A DNA stretch of 41,755 bases, from positions 1 through 41,755 of IMG/VR virus record IMGVR_UViG_3300022745_000071. The stretch is one strand, 5' to 3'. The notes beneath the pieces were generated by a model, which ran no database searches, had not been told where the DNA came from, and worked only from the letters and a program-made list of their open reading frames with translations. Shown here in pieces: positions 4,541-40,970 of this stretch. The stretch's first letter is position 1; each line of letters begins with the position of its first letter. A program made the position numbers and the translations under genes. The DNA comes from a virus.

Positions 4541-4728
4541 TCTTGCTTATCCAACTCCTTTAGGAAAATATCATTGATATAGTGTTTGACAATGTAACTG
4601 TATAGTTCACCCACTTGGTCAAAGTCAAGTTTAACTTGGGAATATCCCCCAAAATTAATATCACCTTGCTCAACATAGAGTTTTCCATCTAGGATATAGA
4701 AGTCAAGGGGGCTTTTATCCATCACCAA
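4537..4728 (-). CDS. Hypothetical protein, 63 aa
   Basis: Short acidic protein starting MVMDKSPLDFYILDGKLY; no domain is recognised. It overlaps the end of the primase-helicase gene by 7 nt and the next gene by 4 nt, so it is part of the same translationally coupled string. Confidence 0.65.
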   Translation of the reverse strand: MVMDKSPLDFYILDGKLYVEQGDINFGGYSQVKLDFDQVGELYSYIVKHYINDIFLKELDKQE

Positions 4729-6308
4729 CCACTTCCTTTCTCACTAAGGGTGAACGTATCACCATCAAACAACAGTTCCCCTGCTTCACCTTCAAGTCCG
4801 CAGGGGCGGTTCTTCTTAACTACCAGCTTTGTAGTGTTTCTGTCAATCATATTATCTGCTTCCTTATCCCGTTCAAGGTCAATAACCACAGAAGCACGTT
4901 GGGCGATCATCTTGCAGTACTTAGGGTCACCACTCTCGTTAGTGTGTGCAATAGTGACAATACCTACATTCAAGTCAGCAGAAAGCTTAGAGAGTTTCAC
5001 TGACAAGTCAGCAAGGATTGTCTCTTTGTTTACCTCATTACTAACAGTAACAATATCTTGCAAGGGTTCCACAAAAACATACTGACAACCATAGACCTGT
5101 GTCAATACCCTGATTTGCTCAATAAGCCCCTCTGCGTCAGCGTCATCAAGATGAAACTGCATATATCCCGTATTATGAGTGATATGCTTGATAGCACCTT
5201 CTACATCAACCATGCGTCCCTTGTCTTTAATCAAATCCTTCCGGGTAAGATTGTCTTTAAGATAGTAGGATACCACACCAAGCAAGGAACGAAGTTTAGT
5301 CTCCTCAAGGTGCCATGTAGCAAAACGTACAGTAGGATAATTCTTAATGAAATTGTATTCAAGATAACGCATGAATTCACTCTTACCGACCGATGTGGGG
5401 GCCTTAATAACAGTAAAATGACCACGCATTAGACCAAGAATTTTCTCATCAAGAGATTCAATCCCAGTAGGGATATAGGAACTCTCCTGAGTGTCATGCA
5501 GTAGTTCTAGGAAACGTTCTTCTGTGGCATAGATGTTGTCTGGGGTATATAGACCACTAGACCACCAAGCATTACGATACTGTTCCCCTGCACCAGCCTG
5601 TAGGAACTCGTTAGCATCCTTGAACTTGTCATGAGGAACCTTATAGACACGTCCGGGGAACAAGTGCATTAGGCTAAGAGCAAACTTATCTGCTTTATTA
5701 TCAGAGTCAAGAGAGAGGTAAATCTTCTCGAAAGACTCTAGCCAATCCTTGCAGTTCTCAAGGAGTTTCTTTGACGGTGTAGCAGAAGGAAGAGAGACAA
5801 CAGGGTACTTAGAGCCTAGCATTTGAAAGGCTGACATGGCATCAAGACAGCCTTCCGTAATAGTAACTGCCTTAGCAGAACCAGCCGGGAACAAATTCAT
5901 ACCAAACAACTGATTTGGACTAAAACCCTTATTAGTCACAAACTCTTTGGGGAATACCCGTGTCTTGGTCCCACCATCAGGATAGATGTAGGTATGCTTG
6001 ATGGGATTACCTTCACTATCCGAATAAGTAAGACACTTATAGAACTCCATAGCCCTAGGAAGAATACCCCGATGTTCTAGGTACTTTCCTTCACTGACAA
6101 CCTCAGGTTTCACTTGACCTTCTTTCTTTACATTAATTTCCTTCAGTGGGTATGCTTCCTTTGCCCAATCATGTACCACCATACCTTTGTGTGGATAGGC
6201 TTCACCACAAGAACGGCAAAACCCTACTTTTTTAATATCTTCATAGTCAAAGGCATCAGATGAACCACAAGAAGTGAAGGGGCATGGTTTATGAATGTGT
6301 TCTGTCAA
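4722..6308 (-). CDS. Primase-helicase (T7 gp4-like)
   Basis: Bifunctional enzyme that unwinds DNA at the fork and lays RNA primers. Zinc-binding domain: Cys9, Cys14, Cys31, Cys34 (CPFTSC and CRSC). TOPRIM primase domain: TEGCLDA with E152 and SLDSD with D201/D203. RecA-type DnaB helicase domain: Walker A APTSVGKS at 303-310, a Walker B-like hydrophobic strand VFVEPLQD, and the IAHTNESGDPKY segment near the DNA-binding loop. Length (528) is close to T7 gp4 (566). The start is TTG, preceded by AGGATAAAC. A near-identical copy of its first 34 codons, beginning with ATG, lies about 490 nt upstream (6695-6795), so the present start looks rebuilt after a recombination event. Confidence 0.94.
   Translation of the reverse strand: MTEHIHKPCPFTSCGSSDAFDYEDIKKVGFCRSCGEAYPHKGMVVHDWAKEAYPLKEINVKKEGQVKPEVVSEGKYLEHRGILPRAMEFYKCLTYSDSEGNPIKHTYIYPDGGTKTRVFPKEFVTNKGFSPNQLFGMNLFPAGSAKAVTITEGCLDAMSAFQMLGSKYPVVSLPSATPSKKLLENCKDWLESFEKIYLSLDSDNKADKFALSLMHLFPGRVYKVPHDKFKDANEFLQAGAGEQYRNAWWSSGLYTPDNIYATEERFLELLHDTQESSYIPTGIESLDEKILGLMRGHFTVIKAPTSVGKSEFMRYLEYNFIKNYPTVRFATWHLEETKLRSLLGVVSYYLKDNLTRKDLIKDKGRMVDVEGAIKHITHNTGYMQFHLDDADAEGLIEQIRVLTQVYGCQYVFVEPLQDIVTVSNEVNKETILADLSVKLSKLSADLNVGIVTIAHTNESGDPKYCKMIAQRASVVIDLERDKEADNMIDRNTTKLVVKKNRPCGLEGEAGELLFDGDTFTLSEKGSGW
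6208..6305. repeat. Direct repeat, primase zinc-finger copy A
   Basis: About 98 bp nearly identical (a handful of substitutions) to 6695-6792 in the same orientation. It encodes the zinc-binding N-terminus of the primase. The homology stops just after the second CxxC on one side and at the start codon (TTG here, ATG in the other copy) on the other. Confidence 0.9.
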
Positions 6309-6350
6309 AGTTTATCCTTTATGATTATGAAATATCCAAAGCAGATAGGA
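6306..6350. repeat. Direct repeat, cassette gene end plus TTG start, copy A
   Basis: Encodes, on the minus strand, the shared protein ending ILSALDIS, the stop, the leader AGGATAAAC and the TTGACA start. The partner is at about 6990-7034 with a few mismatches. Together with the zinc-finger repeat it records how the cassette was spliced into the primase operon. Confidence 0.8.
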
Positions 6351-6795
6351 TGCGTGCCTCGTAATCGGCTTGAGCGGCTGCTTTGGCGGCTTCGATGGTG
6401 GGGTAAACTCCACTGTCTACGCCGTCGCGTGATAGCATATCGCCCATAGGGTCAGGGTAAACCTCATAGAAGCCGAACGCATGGTCAGTTTCATACCCAT
6501 TGGTTCCATCGTCTCTCCACACCAGCGGCTTCACCCGCACGGCGGTCAGCGGGGCGATCTGGTCGTACAGGTCGATGGATTGATCCTCCCATTGCTTCCA
6601 ATGATCACCATCTTCCGCATGTGCTTCACATAGCGCCCACGCCAGTAGTTCGATCTGCTCATCACGGGTCATTTCGGCTCTCCATCCAGCGCGGCAAGAA
6701 CGGCAAAACCCTACTTTTTTAGTATCTTCATAGTCAAAGGCATCTGATGAACCACAAGAAGTAAATGGGCATGGTTTATGAATGTGTTCTGTCAT
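6325..6795 (-). CDS. Chimeric protein: primase zinc finger fused to a cassette C-terminal module
   Basis: Residues 1-34 duplicate the primase zinc-binding domain with all four cysteines (CPFTSC, CRSC). From about residue 35 the protein switches to foreign, GC-richer sequence: a helical stretch (RDEQIELLAWALCEAH) and a VRVKPLVW domain ending AAAQADYEARILSALDIS. That ending recurs in the gene at 7009-7500. The C-terminal module is common in alphaproteobacterial phages but has no assigned function. The chimera could compete for or supply zinc-finger contacts in trans, or be neutral debris; the frame is intact over 156 codons, and the ATG overlaps the preceding gene. Confidence 0.75.
   Translation of the reverse strand: MTEHIHKPCPFTSCGSSDAFDYEDTKKVGFCRSCRAGWRAEMTRDEQIELLAWALCEAHAEDGDHWKQWEDQSIDLYDQIAPLTAVRVKPLVWRDDGTNGYETDHAFGFYEVYPDPMGDMLSRDGVDSGVYPTIEAAKAAAQADYEARILSALDIS
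6695..6792. repeat. Direct repeat, primase zinc-finger copy B
   Basis: Partner of 6208-6305, same orientation. This copy carries the ATG start and is probably the ancestral primase 5' end, now joined to a different downstream sequence. Confidence 0.9.
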
Positions 6796-10559: not shown

Positions 10560-11519
10560 TCAATACTCCTCTGCTTCCTCCCGAGTAAGAAAGAAATGGA
10601 TACCGTTAGTGCATTCTGCCCGAATGTCGGGGTCATACTTGTCAGGGTACACAGTTTTACCGACTTCATAGGTGGTCTTACTATCGTGTTTAGAGATGCC
10701 TTCCCCATCAACTACAACCACATACTCAGCACGACATTTGCGACCAACAGGAGTAGCTGTTCTTTCAGCTTCAGCGGGGATGAGAAGAGTTACGATTTTT
10801 TCACCTTGCAGTTTCTTGAACCCATAAAGGGGAAACCCTTTAGGAGTAATCTGAAACTTAGGAAGTTTGGCACCAGAGAGATTGGCACGAGAGATGTCGG
10901 CACCAGAGAGATTGGCACGAGAGATGTCGGCACCAGAAAGATTGGCACCAGAAAGATTGGCACGAGAGAGGTTGGCATCAGAGAGGTTGGCACGAAAGAT
11001 GTCGGCATAAGAAAGATTGGCACGAGAGATGTCGGCACGAGAGATGTCGGCACCAGAGAGGTTGGCAACAAAGAGATTGGTATTAGAGAGATTGGCACCA
11101 GAAAGATTGGCACCAGAAAGATTGGCACGAGAGATGTCGGCATAAGAAAGATTGGCACGAGAGATGTCGGCACCAGAAAGATCGGCACCAGAAAGATTGG
11201 CACGAGAGAGATTGGCACCAGAAAGATTGGCACGAGAGAGATTGGCACCAGAAAGATTGGCACCAAAGAGATTGGCACCAGAAAGATTGGCACCAGAAAG
11301 ATTGGCACCAGAAAGATTGGCACGAGAGAGATTGGCACGAGAGAGGTTGGCATCAGAGAGGTTGGCACGAAAGATGTCGGCATAAGAAAGATTGGCATGA
11401 GAGATGTCGGCACCAGAGAGATTGGCACCAGAAAGATTGGCACGAACCCCTCCTACTCCTCCCTTCAACCATTTAGCATGTAGGTTAAGGATATTCTTGA
11501 TTTCTTCTTTCGTAATCAT
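10560..11519 (-). CDS. Pentapeptide-repeat protein with C-terminal domain, 319 aa
   Basis: Residues about 27-216 are roughly 38 consecutive pentapeptides of the [10 protein letters not shown] type, which fold as a right-handed quadrilateral beta-helix. An N-terminal helical segment ([18 protein letters not shown]) precedes the repeats. The C-terminal about 100 residues ([20 protein letters not shown]...[11 protein letters not shown]) resemble the DUF5758-type domain often attached to phage pentapeptide proteins. In other systems such proteins mimic DNA and protect or inhibit gyrase; here that is only a possibility. Large blocks of repeats are near-identical at DNA level, so the repeat number probably varies. 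Confidence 0.92.
10872..11441. repeat. 15-bp tandem repeat array encoding the pentapeptides
   Basis: About 38 units of a 15-bp sequence, variants of GATTGGCACCAGAAA on the plus strand. Higher-order duplication is visible: a block of about 57 bp around 10961-11020 recurs around 11341-11397. Because the unit length is a multiple of three, all frames on both strands stay open. Confidence 0.95.
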
Positions 11520-11546: not shown

Positions 11547-11927
11547 TTAAAAACCACGACGGATGAGGTCAAGGGCGGTTGGGATGCTCTTCTTGATACC
11601 CTCAATAGCGTCAAGAATAGTCTTAATTTCAGTCAAGTTAGTCTTTGGTTTATTGTAAGAATCACCCACCACGAGACGCTGTACTTTGCGTAGCCATTCA
11701 TTGTGACTATTTGCAGACCAATTATTTCCCTCATAGTCAAAAGAACAACCATCTGTATGATTATATGGGCAAAGAAGGTCATGCATACGTTGTGCAGTTG
11801 CCTTAAGTGGTTCAAGTTTCTCAGCTTCTTCCTTCCGCTTAAGAGCCTCTACCTTATCACGGGTGGACTGCATAAGTTTTTGCTGGTCAGCTAGTTGTGC
11901 TTCTAGAAGTTTCAACTCTTCGTTCAT
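11547..11927 (-). CDS. Hypothetical coiled-coil protein, 126 aa
   Basis: Residues 1-45 form a likely coiled coil (MNEELKLLEAQLADQQKLM...KRKEEAEKL). The middle has a CPYNHTDGCSFDYEGN segment with two cysteines and a histidine, and the C-terminal 40 residues are helical. It is the first leftward gene after the divergent control region and sits directly behind the strongest leftward promoter candidate, so it is probably an early gene. Function unknown. Confidence 0.75.
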   Translation of the reverse strand: MNEELKLLEAQLADQQKLMQSTRDKVEALKRKEEAEKLEPLKATAQRMHDLLCPYNHTDGCSFDYEGNNWSANSHNEWLRKVQRLVVGDSYNKPKTNLTEIKTILDAIEGIKKSIPTALDLIRRGF

Positions 11928-11954
11928 TTCAGTTCCTTTATCTTCGTTGCACTC

Positions 11955-11983
11955 TGTTTAGACTGATTCGTTGTGGTTGTCAA
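11955..11983 (-). promoter_or_regulatory. Leftward sigma-70-like promoter at the divergent junction
   Basis: Minus strand TTGACA, 17-nt spacer, TAAACA, about 30 nt before the ATG at 11927. The spacer begins ACCACAA. It is positioned to drive the whole leftward gene block. Confidence 0.65.
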
Positions 11984-12645
11984 CAGGAAAATTAAGGTTA
12001 TCCTTGTGCCACTGAAAACCCTGAACAATTCGCCTATAGGGGTGAGCATTTCCCCTAGTACCCCCTGAGCATTTCCCTCGGTGGGGTAGTTGAGCTCAAA
12101 CACGACTCGTTCAATCGTGTTGTGACCTTGGTCACTAGGGCAGCAAAGCTGCTAGCGGTATCACGACTCGTTCAATCGTGTTAGCGGAAAGCTTGAGTAA
12201 GCATACTTCCCCAAGCCAGCTTGCTGGCGACAGATGTCTTTTAGATATACCTTCCCGTTTTTTGCGAACGCTGTATGCGCCCCCGCCCGATCAAGTCGGG
12301 TTCATACCTGCATAAATAGACCGATTCGCTATCAGGGTCAAGCCTGTTTCATCATGATCACGTTTTTGTGAAGTATGTTACAGGGGCTTGCCAAGCTTGG
12401 CGAATCACGTCATAAAGGGTCTATCGGAAAGGTTGACGTGGCACTAGCCCCTGACCCTGACCCCGATAGACCTGACCCGTTCCCCTTGGGAAAGCAGTTG
12501 TTAGGCATAGGCGCGCAACATGTGAGTGTTGAAGGAACGCGACCTAGCAGACTAAGGCAAGTTAAGGCAAGCTTTAGTCAAGACAGGCAGCCCCTGTTTT
12601 CATGCCGATTCAATCCCGAGTCGGTATCAATTAAGGGGAACAAAA
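11984..12645. other. Divergent control region packed with inverted repeats, possible origin
   Basis: About 660 nt without a supportable gene between the leftward and rightward operons. Short perfect inverted repeats: TAGGGG/CCCCTA (12037-12058), AACACGA/TCGTGTT (12099-12121), GTGACC-TT-GGTCAC (12122-12135), GCAGC-AAA-GCTGC (12140-12152), CACGA/TCGTG (12162-12180), GCCAGC-TT-GCTGGC (12215-12228), CCCGA/TCGGG (12286-12300), the 12-bp palindrome GCCAAGCTTGGC (12390-12401), GGTCTATCGG/CCGATAGACC (12418-12472) and CCGA/TCGG near the first rightward gene. Several have 2-3 nt loops, more like DNA cruciforms or protein sites than RNA terminators. A replication origin, early control region or structured leader is possible. 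Confidence 0.65.
12099..12180. repeat. Two copies of a 19-bp hairpin
   Basis: CACGACTCGTTCAATCGTG occurs at 12101-12119 and 12162-12180, same orientation, each a 5-7 bp stem with a 9-nt loop. The perfect palindromic elements GTGACC/GGTCAC and GCAGC/GCTGC lie between them. Confidence 0.9.
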
Positions 12646-12834
12646 ATGAAAACCTATACTGTTACGTATCATGACTCTTCTGATGCCCTCTGCACTGAAG
12701 AGAAAATCAGGGCAAAATCTGCCAAGGACGCGATTAATGTTTTGGCGAAAGAGATTGATTTTTTCAACTGCTACAAATTCAGTGTTTACCACAACGGAAA
12801 GGCGATTATTGAATCTGAATTTGATAAAAGTTAA
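12646..12834 (+). CDS. Hypothetical early protein, 62 aa
   Basis: First rightward gene. Clear AAGGGG Shine-Dalgarno before ATG. The sequence MKTYTVTYHDSSDALC...IRAKSAKDAINVLAKE has a strand-strand-helix pattern seen in many small phage proteins. No function is known. A hairpin with a TCAA-containing loop (12605-12625) precedes it. Confidence 0.75.
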   Translation: MKTYTVTYHDSSDALCTEEKIRAKSAKDAINVLAKEIDFFNCYKFSVYHNGKAIIESEFDKS

Positions 12835-17163: not shown

Positions 17164-17247
17164 GAGTTGAACGCCTGAGAGGACGGGCACCTGACTGTAA
17201 ATCAGACGCGGAAACGCAGATAGGTTCGAACCCTATTCAACTCACCA
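17164..17247 (+). tRNA. tRNA-Tyr (anticodon GTA)
   Basis: Acceptor arms GAGTTGA/TCAACTC with discriminator A and encoded CCA. Anticodon loop CTGTAAA gives GTA. T arm ATAGG-TTCGAAC-CCTAT. The long variable arm (GCG-GAAA-CGC hairpin) is as expected for bacterial class II tRNA-Tyr. The outermost anticodon-stem pair is C-A. 84 nt in total. Confidence 0.92.
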
Positions 17248-17261
17248 AATATACCTGATTA

Positions 17262-17337
17262 GCCCTTGAAGCATTTAACGGATGATGTTTGGTTTTGTAG
17301 TCCAAGGAAATCGGTTCGATTCCGGACAAGGGCACCA
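17262..17337 (+). tRNA. tRNA-Thr (anticodon TGT)
   Basis: Acceptor GCCCTTG/CAAGGGC, discriminator A and encoded CCA. Anticodon stem TTGG/CCAA with loop TTTGTAG gives TGT, reading Thr ACA. T loop TTCGATT. Slightly irregular: a T-T mismatch closes the anticodon loop, the T stem has an A-A outer pair, and the D stem (GCAT/ATGT) leaves no base before the anticodon stem. Probably functional, but a borderline score is expected. Confidence 0.8.
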
Positions 17338-40267: not shown

Positions 40268-40970
40268 GTTTACCACCCCTTTCAAAAGCAATAATCCATT
40301 GCTTACAAATATCAGAACGAACAATATCCTCTATACCAAACTCAATTACAGGTACAGACATATTATTCTGCTTAACCAAACGAAGGGTAGTAGCCAACCC
40401 TGATTCACTTAGAATGTCAGATTGTTTAATATCCCCGTTAATGACCACCTTACAGTTGTAACCGATTCGTGTCAAGAACATCTTTACTTCAGGTGTGGTA
40501 GTATTTTGTGCTTCATCAAGGATAATGAAAGCATTCTTGAAGGAACGTCCCCTCATAGTAGACAAGGGGGCCATCTCAATGTTACCAGCCTTGATACCCG
40601 TCTCTACTACACCCTTACCTAGTTGCTCTACAAGAACATCAAGGATAGGCAAGGCCCAAGGTTGGAACTTCTCTTCTAGTGTGCCGGGAAAGTACCCAAG
40701 GTCTTTGCCCACTGACACGTTAGGGCGGGTAAGGATAATCTTGTCAATTTGTTTTTGGGCATACATGTTAGCTGCATAAGTAGCTGCAATGTAGGTCTTA
40801 CCTGTGCCAGAACAGCCGCAGACAATCACTTGGTTAGAATCATTAAGGGCCTTGATGTAAGTCTTTTGATTATCATTGAGGGCCTTAAGAGAAACTGTTT
40901 TTGTGGCAGCCTCTACATCAGCACCCTTGTATTTAGACACTCGTTTAGACTTAGGTGATTCAATCATCAC
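40257..40970 (-). CDS. phoH: PhoH-like ATPase
   Basis: 237 residues. Walker A GCSGTGKT at 52-59, Walker B ILDEAQ at about 150-155, and the TRPNVSVGKDLGYFPGTLEEKFQPW segment specific to PhoH. Common auxiliary gene in phages, role in RNA or nucleotide metabolism unsettled. It overlaps the glutaredoxin gene by 4 nt. Confidence 0.95.
   Translation of the reverse strand: MMIESPKSKRVSKYKGADVEAATKTVSLKALNDNQKTYIKALNDSNQVIVCGCSGTGKTYIAATYAANMYAQKQIDKIILTRPNVSVGKDLGYFPGTLEEKFQPWALPILDVLVEQLGKGVVETGIKAGNIEMAPLSTMRGRSFKNAFIILDEAQNTTTPEVKMFLTRIGYNCKVVINGDIKQSDILSESGLATTLRLVKQNNMSVPVIEFGIEDIVRSDICKQWIIAFERGGKLDY

Follow-up and report, generated by a model that had tools for sequence, protein, structure and literature searches.

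What is the role of the 718 nt, from 11927 to 12646, that separate the leftward from the rightward genes of this viral genome? The window, that is the whole stretch of DNA analysed, is a 41,755-bp IMG/VR virus record, and no convincing gene is found in this interval. A sequence-only reading had described it as a palindrome-dense divergent junction, and proposed either an origin or a master control region.

Genome setting and layout of the junction

The TerL of the window is 66% identical to that of Roseobacter phage CRP-6, an RCA-lineage phage (PMC6918029). The CRP-6 host belongs to the Rhodobacteraceae, and by this kinship to CRP-6 alone (TerL, 66%) the host of the window phage is probably alphaproteobacterial. 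The left arm, oriented leftward, encodes ThyX, DNA polymerase A and a primase-helicase, and PhoH, also leftward, lies at the opposite end of the record from these three. The right arm, oriented rightward, contains small ORFs, tRNAs and structural genes. Minus-strand genes end at 11927 and plus-strand genes begin at 12646, which bears out the earlier description of a noncoding point of divergence.

Some features of the two arms were noted in passing. A pentapeptide-repeat protein with a C-terminal DUF5758 (10560-11519, minus strand) is encoded near the start of the left operon. Two adjacent minus-strand ORFs (4722-6308 and 6325-6795) have near-identical zinc-ribbon-like starts (TEHIHKPCPFTSCGSSDAFDYED), so that part of the N-terminus of the primase-helicase is duplicated. 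On the plus strand, two tRNA-like genes are neighbours (17164-17244 and 17262-17337), one found by Rfam only (long variable arm), the other, a tRNA-Thr, by ARAGORN only.

Near and distant DNA searches did not find a homologous junction in known phages. A common plan was apparent in five relatives read side by side, with a left promoter, a TTTCC..GTGGGG repeat array, operator-like sites, the conserved core and a right promoter. In the window, the array is as follows:

12037..12087, no strand assigned: WTTTCC(C/A)YBGKGGGG-type repeats, on the upstream side of the left promoter P_L1

Relatives have 2-5 copies of these repeats, almost all within the junction. The junctions of L090 and L088 (L and G numbers are our handles for the other records) are enlarged by tandem short repeats (CTATTGTGGCCTCTTTC; CATCCCTAGTGG).

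Three predicted promoters share a spacer length and a GANTC offset

Three promoter-like sites face both ways:

11955..11983, minus strand: P_L1, predicted leftward sigma70-type promoter, TTGACA-17-TAAACA
12313..12341, minus strand: P_core, predicted leftward promoter, TTGACC-17-TATTTA
12388..12416, plus strand: P_R, predicted rightward promoter, TTGCCA-17-CATAAA; its basis includes direct reading of the sequence

P_L1 is predicted to serve the first left gene (start 11927), and an equivalent is found at the same place in L005, L010, L020, L092, G005 and G006. P_core has a predicted start at 12305/12306, and the RNA element described below begins 4-6 nt past the promoter. All three sites have a 17-nt spacer and a GAATC placed exactly 8 nt past the -35 hexamer (an offset of 8), an agreement to which no formal p-value can be attached, since they were picked by eye with GANTC in view. 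In Alphaproteobacteria, GANTC is methylated by CcrM, and the copies at 11965 (P_L1), 12323 (P_core) and 12401 (P_R) all match the extended form YGAKTCK.

This arrangement recurs in other genomes. Upstream of 22 elements, the best sigma70 match averaged 9.8 bits, against 4.0 in shuffles, and most of the 22 had a 17-nt spacer and a -10 ending 4-6 nt before the element. A GANTC was present in the spacer of the P_core homologues at offset 7-9 in 14 cases out of 22. Over all genomes examined, a GANTC followed TTGAC about twice as often at 7-10 nt as at any other spacing.

In Caulobacter, activation by GcrA is linked to TGATTCG or YGAKTCK, whereas GcrA of Brevundimonas has no such extended motif (PMC7987155). 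One of the cell-cycle timing classes of Caulobacter is characterised by a GANTC placed between -10 and -35 (PMC4287350), and mutations of promoter GANTC sites lowered activity there by 60-80% (PMC3667746). The predicted promoters described here resemble these GcrA/CcrM promoters by the GANTC between the -35 and -10 of a sigma70-type promoter and by the extended YGAKTCK (here CGAATC/GATTCG). They differ in that they belong to a phage and its two early arms, have a fixed offset, and lie in a dense island within a genome depleted of GANTC.

A conserved, folded RNA at the predicted leftward start

Comparison by blastn with primase-helicase relatives gave short matches in the junction, the best at 12247-12304, where the following feature lies:

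12247..12306, minus strand: conserved structured RNA element of 60 nt, predicted 5' end of the leftward transcript

The element starts with UAUGAA, continues with a first hairpin (CCCGA-CUUGA-UCGGG), CGGGG and a second hairpin (GCGC-AUACA-GCGU), and ends with UCGCAAAAAAC. Both hairpins fit all 12 aligned element cores. In these 12 sequences 108 of 108 minus-strand cells pair, with 16 double compensatory cells and double changes in 5 pairs, counts that are somewhat inflated by the relatedness of the sequences. Retrieval by motif favours elements that resemble the model. The covariation score was 0.512, versus 0.216 +/- 0.040 in shuffles, and when partners were moved by 1-3 columns, 28-43% of the cells were paired. 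RNAalifold independently gave the same structure, plus two more invariant pairs. Taken singly, the two hairpins have no energetic excess (z about 0), so that covariation is what carries the case for RNA.

The sequence-only reading had favoured DNA cruciforms or dimeric protein sites over RNA, and for the conserved core we reject this. Pairing drops from 100% to 92.6% when these cells are taken from the plus strand, where each of the eight G-U wobbles of the minus-strand reading becomes an A-C mismatch. A cruciform would need both strands to pair; the molecule under selection is thus the minus-strand RNA. The protein-site proposal does fit at least one palindrome of the junction, TGCTAGCGGTATCA.

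The covariance model scored 79.6 bits in the window, with one match per record and leftward only, and at least 16 phage records carry the element, each in a single copy. Among records outside the model-building set, matches were strong in L138 (E 3e-13), L012 (2e-8), L128 (1e-6) and L143 (6e-6), and weak, at the right place, in L022, L026, L036, L017, L123, L131 and L145. The model had no match in CRP-6, nor in the three Cobavirinae ICBM2, CRP-4 and CRP-5. A scan of the whole window against Rfam 15, GOLLD and ROOL included, returned the tRNA at 17164 and nothing else above gathering score. The element motif had no match across 84,980 bacterial species, so in this exact form it is carried neither by prophages nor by hosts of this set.

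A group of matches containing TTTTTTGCGA...GCCCG (L102-L119) was mostly judged by eye to be due to chance, being devoid of the promoter and of the flanking conserved bases. A leaderless ORF (AUGAAC...) was also discarded on direct reading: in the window it runs for four codons before a stop, and L010 and L040 have lost its start codon. By these comparisons, the element is a conserved, folded RNA of a previously undescribed class at the predicted leftward +1.

Palindromes and the rightward leader

All palindromes named in the sequence-only reading were found in place, and it was correct on the 10-bp arm pair 35 nt apart and on the hairpin present twice:

12101 and 12162: CACGACTCGTTCAATCGTG, repeated 19-mer hairpin with GACTC in the loop
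12122: GTGACCTTGGTCAC, named palindrome
12140: GCAGCAAAGCTGC, named palindrome
12215: GCCAGCTTGCTGGC, named palindrome
12390: GCCAAGCTTGGC, 12-bp palindrome, overlapped by P_R
12418 and 12463: GGTCTATCGG and CCGATAGACC, 10-bp arms 35 nt apart
12101..12180, no strand assigned: palindrome cluster, comprising CACGACTCGTTCAATCGTG twice, GTGACC-TT-GGTCAC, GCAGC-AAA-GCTGC and the operator-like TGCTAGCGGTATCA (12150-12163)

The junction is indeed rich in palindromes: we counted 11 inverted repeats with arms of at least 5 and loops of at most 9, for 4.6 +/- 1.9 expected, a number reached in none of 300 dinucleotide shuffles (maximum 9). With arms of at least 6, there were 5 for 1.2 expected (p 0.003). 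Such a density is not unique to the junction, as 8 of 374 sliding windows hold 5 arms of at least 6, and five of these eight are away from it, at 19.6 kb and 38.6-39.2 kb.

The search for the same hairpins in related phages, suggested as a check by the same reading, was largely negative: the named palindromes are mostly not conserved and mostly private to the window genome, and exact search of IMG/VR for the repeated 19-mer hairpin found none. TGCTAGCGGTATCA, at 12150, is part of TGNTANCGNTANCA, which is also present in the junctions of five other phages (G002, G007, L010, L020 and L090). The private palindromes would mostly be operator sites and hairpins of regulatory DNA.

The plus strand of the whole region folds with a z of -5.2, which could have indicated one large ornate RNA, but the fold splits into unrelated hairpins and a rightward leader:

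12423..12645, plus strand: structured leader of the first rightward ORF (12646-12834), fold z -4.2

Its helix GTTCCCCTT/AAGGGGAAC (12480-12488/12635-12643) covers the Shine-Dalgarno of this ORF. The leader is partly common to G003; a hairpin flanked by TTTTCATGC and GTATCAAYTARGG (L099:1795) is also common to G003, with entirely different hairpin letters.

A GANTC island over the junction

The window contains 94 GANTC sites for 151 expected. They are concentrated over the junction and depleted in the rest of the genome:

11965..13484, no strand assigned: GANTC island core, 18 sites for 5.6 expected

The best 3 kb, over the junction, hold 24 sites, which was never equalled in 2000 uniform-placement trials. 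All 12 phages holding the junction (the window, CRP-6 and ten further ones) have an island (p < 0.0005 each), spanning 1.5-4.8 kb around it. GANTC is 2.2-5.1 times as frequent as expected inside the islands, and 0.14-0.56 times outside; in CRP-6, 38 of 69 sites are in the island. A model match was obtained in 11 of the island genomes, and in ten of these the element is within the island; in the remaining one, G012, the best-scoring GANTC segment is found 2.7 kb rightward of it. No island is seen in G001, the nearest relative as judged by primase-helicase, since its contig ends in the junction.

The Cobavirinae ICBM2, CRP-4 and CRP-5 have hosts of the same family, encode homologous primase-helicases and are likewise poor in GANTC; no comparable cluster was found in them, and none at the junction. 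ICBM2 thus shares with the window its genome plan, its primase-helicase and a divergent noncoding junction, and differs in having neither island nor element.

The island extends over the first rightward genes, through coding sequence, so promoters alone do not explain it. Islands show only a moderate excess of the extended GcrA motif (33% versus 22% of sites). Searches of 22 records revealed no phage-encoded GcrA, and an N6/N4 methyltransferase in three of them, the window not being one of these. CCNGG is also strongly depleted, with 33 sites in the window for about 122 expected; CRP-6 has 12 in total, 9 of them within its GANTC island. Depletion of GANTC is known in pelagiphages of marine Alphaproteobacteria (PMC9516812); the likeness stops at the genome-wide depletion, as the part of that source considered here describes no compensating island. 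In Rhodobacterales and other alphaproteobacterial chromosomes, GANTC rises around ori (PMC9836097).

A proposed two-way early control region

What emerges from the genomes compared is a promoter class (17-nt spacer, CGAATC at a fixed offset), a two-hairpin RNA at the predicted +1, and a GANTC island. The proposal of a master control region finds support in these three same-class promoter-like sites facing both ways, the conserved RNA element and the methylation-site island. Our preferred reading, which we regard as quite possible though short of probable, is that the junction is the two-way early control region of a relative of CRP-6-type roseophages, tuned by GcrA/CcrM and provided with a put-like leader RNA. 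Host GcrA, reading CcrM methylation of GANTC, would tune the phage early promoters, so that the early programme would follow either the cell cycle of the host or the methylation of the phage DNA itself. The leader RNA would fold on leaving RNA polymerase and act in cis on the polymerase or on the transcript.

The put RNA of phage HK022, of about 70 nt, forms two stem-loops just downstream of PL, and suppresses pausing and termination via the zinc-binding domain of the RNA polymerase beta' subunit (PMC9378689). Like putL, the element consists of two stem-loops with which a leftward early transcript begins, directly past a promoter (the start and the promoter being predicted here), and a long operon follows. 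It differs by its size (about 45-60 nt), by the absence of visible sequence kinship, and by its single, leftward copy per genome, compared to putL and putR. Such an action could carry transcription leftward across the long replication operon. We prefer it to other actions of the leader since HK022 putL has the same place and shape, and since no intrinsic terminator of the kind scanned for is found within 1 kb past the element in 20 of 22 cases; in itself it remains a doubtful proposition. Antitermination from P_core would moreover miss some left transcripts, because P_L1, nearer to the left operon, is without the element. Three further points count against the preferred reading as a whole: the GANTC enrichment continues through coding sequence, CRP-6 has the island but no detectable element, and the extended GcrA motif is only moderate in islands and has no counterpart for Brevundimonas GcrA.

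Other explanations

An unlikely but serious alternative is that the junction is a replication origin, in which the P_core transcript would form an R-loop, be cut by RNase H near rA6 and prime leftward DNA synthesis as in T4 oriF and ColE1, the island being an origin methylation mark. The GANTC gain around chromosomal ori cited above agrees with this. In T4 oriF and oriG, a promoter is followed by an unwinding element (PMC3016281), and the likeness to T4 oriF and ColE1 extends to the sigma70-type promoter, the structured RNA, replication genes alongside, and a transcript with a G-run (CRGGG) followed by a conserved AAAAAAC. DNA just past the element is AT-rich in L160, L090, L010 and L136, but not in the window (47-51% AT), L022, L026, L036 or L017, so an unwinding element is not conserved. 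CRP-6, again, is without the element. The skew analysis suggested by the sequence-only reading did place a turn of the cumulative GC skew at 11-12 kb, as an origin would have it; gene direction flips at the same point, which fully confounds the skew and prevents it from deciding.

Just as unlikely in our view, the element could be another kind of leader or small RNA: it might stabilise the 5' end, serve the left operon as an attenuator or as a protein-binding leader, or act in trans, with the conserved single-stranded UCGCAAAAAAC as pairing seed. Such roles would suit an RNA that lies exactly at the predicted +1 and has a pair of stable hairpins and an invariant unpaired 3' segment, and a third helix (UCG/CGA, with the A-run in the loop), left uncounted, can form in several of the aligned rows. 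However, no terminator of the kind scanned for would end a short RNA, the seed complement GTTTTTTGCGA occurs at most once in each genome tested, and no short ORF is kept (the window has a stop after four codons).

Less probable still, the island could be passive: restriction sites would be avoided elsewhere, this avoidance being relaxed over recently acquired early genes, and the promoter offset a coincidence. CCNGG, depleted genome-wide, is indeed near expectation in the islands of CRP-6, G005, G007 and G013. Yet it is absent from the window island (0 of 5.5), relaxation predicts GANTC at about 1x rather than the 2.2- to 5.1-fold enrichment observed, and the offset of 8 in three promoters, or 7-9 in 14 of 22 P_core homologues, speaks against a coincidence.

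The equivalent divergent junction of Lentibacter phage ICBM2 (L164), whose primase-helicase is homologous, carries a 159-bp terminal repeat (1-159 and 40749-40907). Methylation-marked packaging sites exist, for example phage P1 pac, the contigs G001 and G002 end in or beside the junction, and CRP-6-type phages may carry packaging ends there as Cobavirinae do; but as an explanation of the junction, a packaging terminus (direct terminal repeat or pac site) is very improbable, given that the window runs through the junction and its ends share no 15-mer, that the ICBM2 repeat has neither element nor GANTC, and that the conserved element pairs as RNA.

Significance

The present analysis adds an undescribed conserved RNA class, supported by covariation, in a group of phages that is abundant in the sea. 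The island could be studied in CRP-6, whose host is isolated, but not the RNA element, which is absent from this phage. In its broadest form, our proposal would be that a widespread marine roseophage group takes host cell-cycle methylation as an input, with GcrA/CcrM-switched early divergent promoters, possibly with an origin, set in a dense island of an otherwise purged genome, and a leader RNA of a new class, starting at +1, through which the polymerase would be programmed or replication primed; taken as a whole, this is rather unlikely. The sharp signature of a purged genome, a dense island and a fixed promoter offset suggests that this phage group reads the host cell cycle through the epigenetic CcrM/GcrA system.
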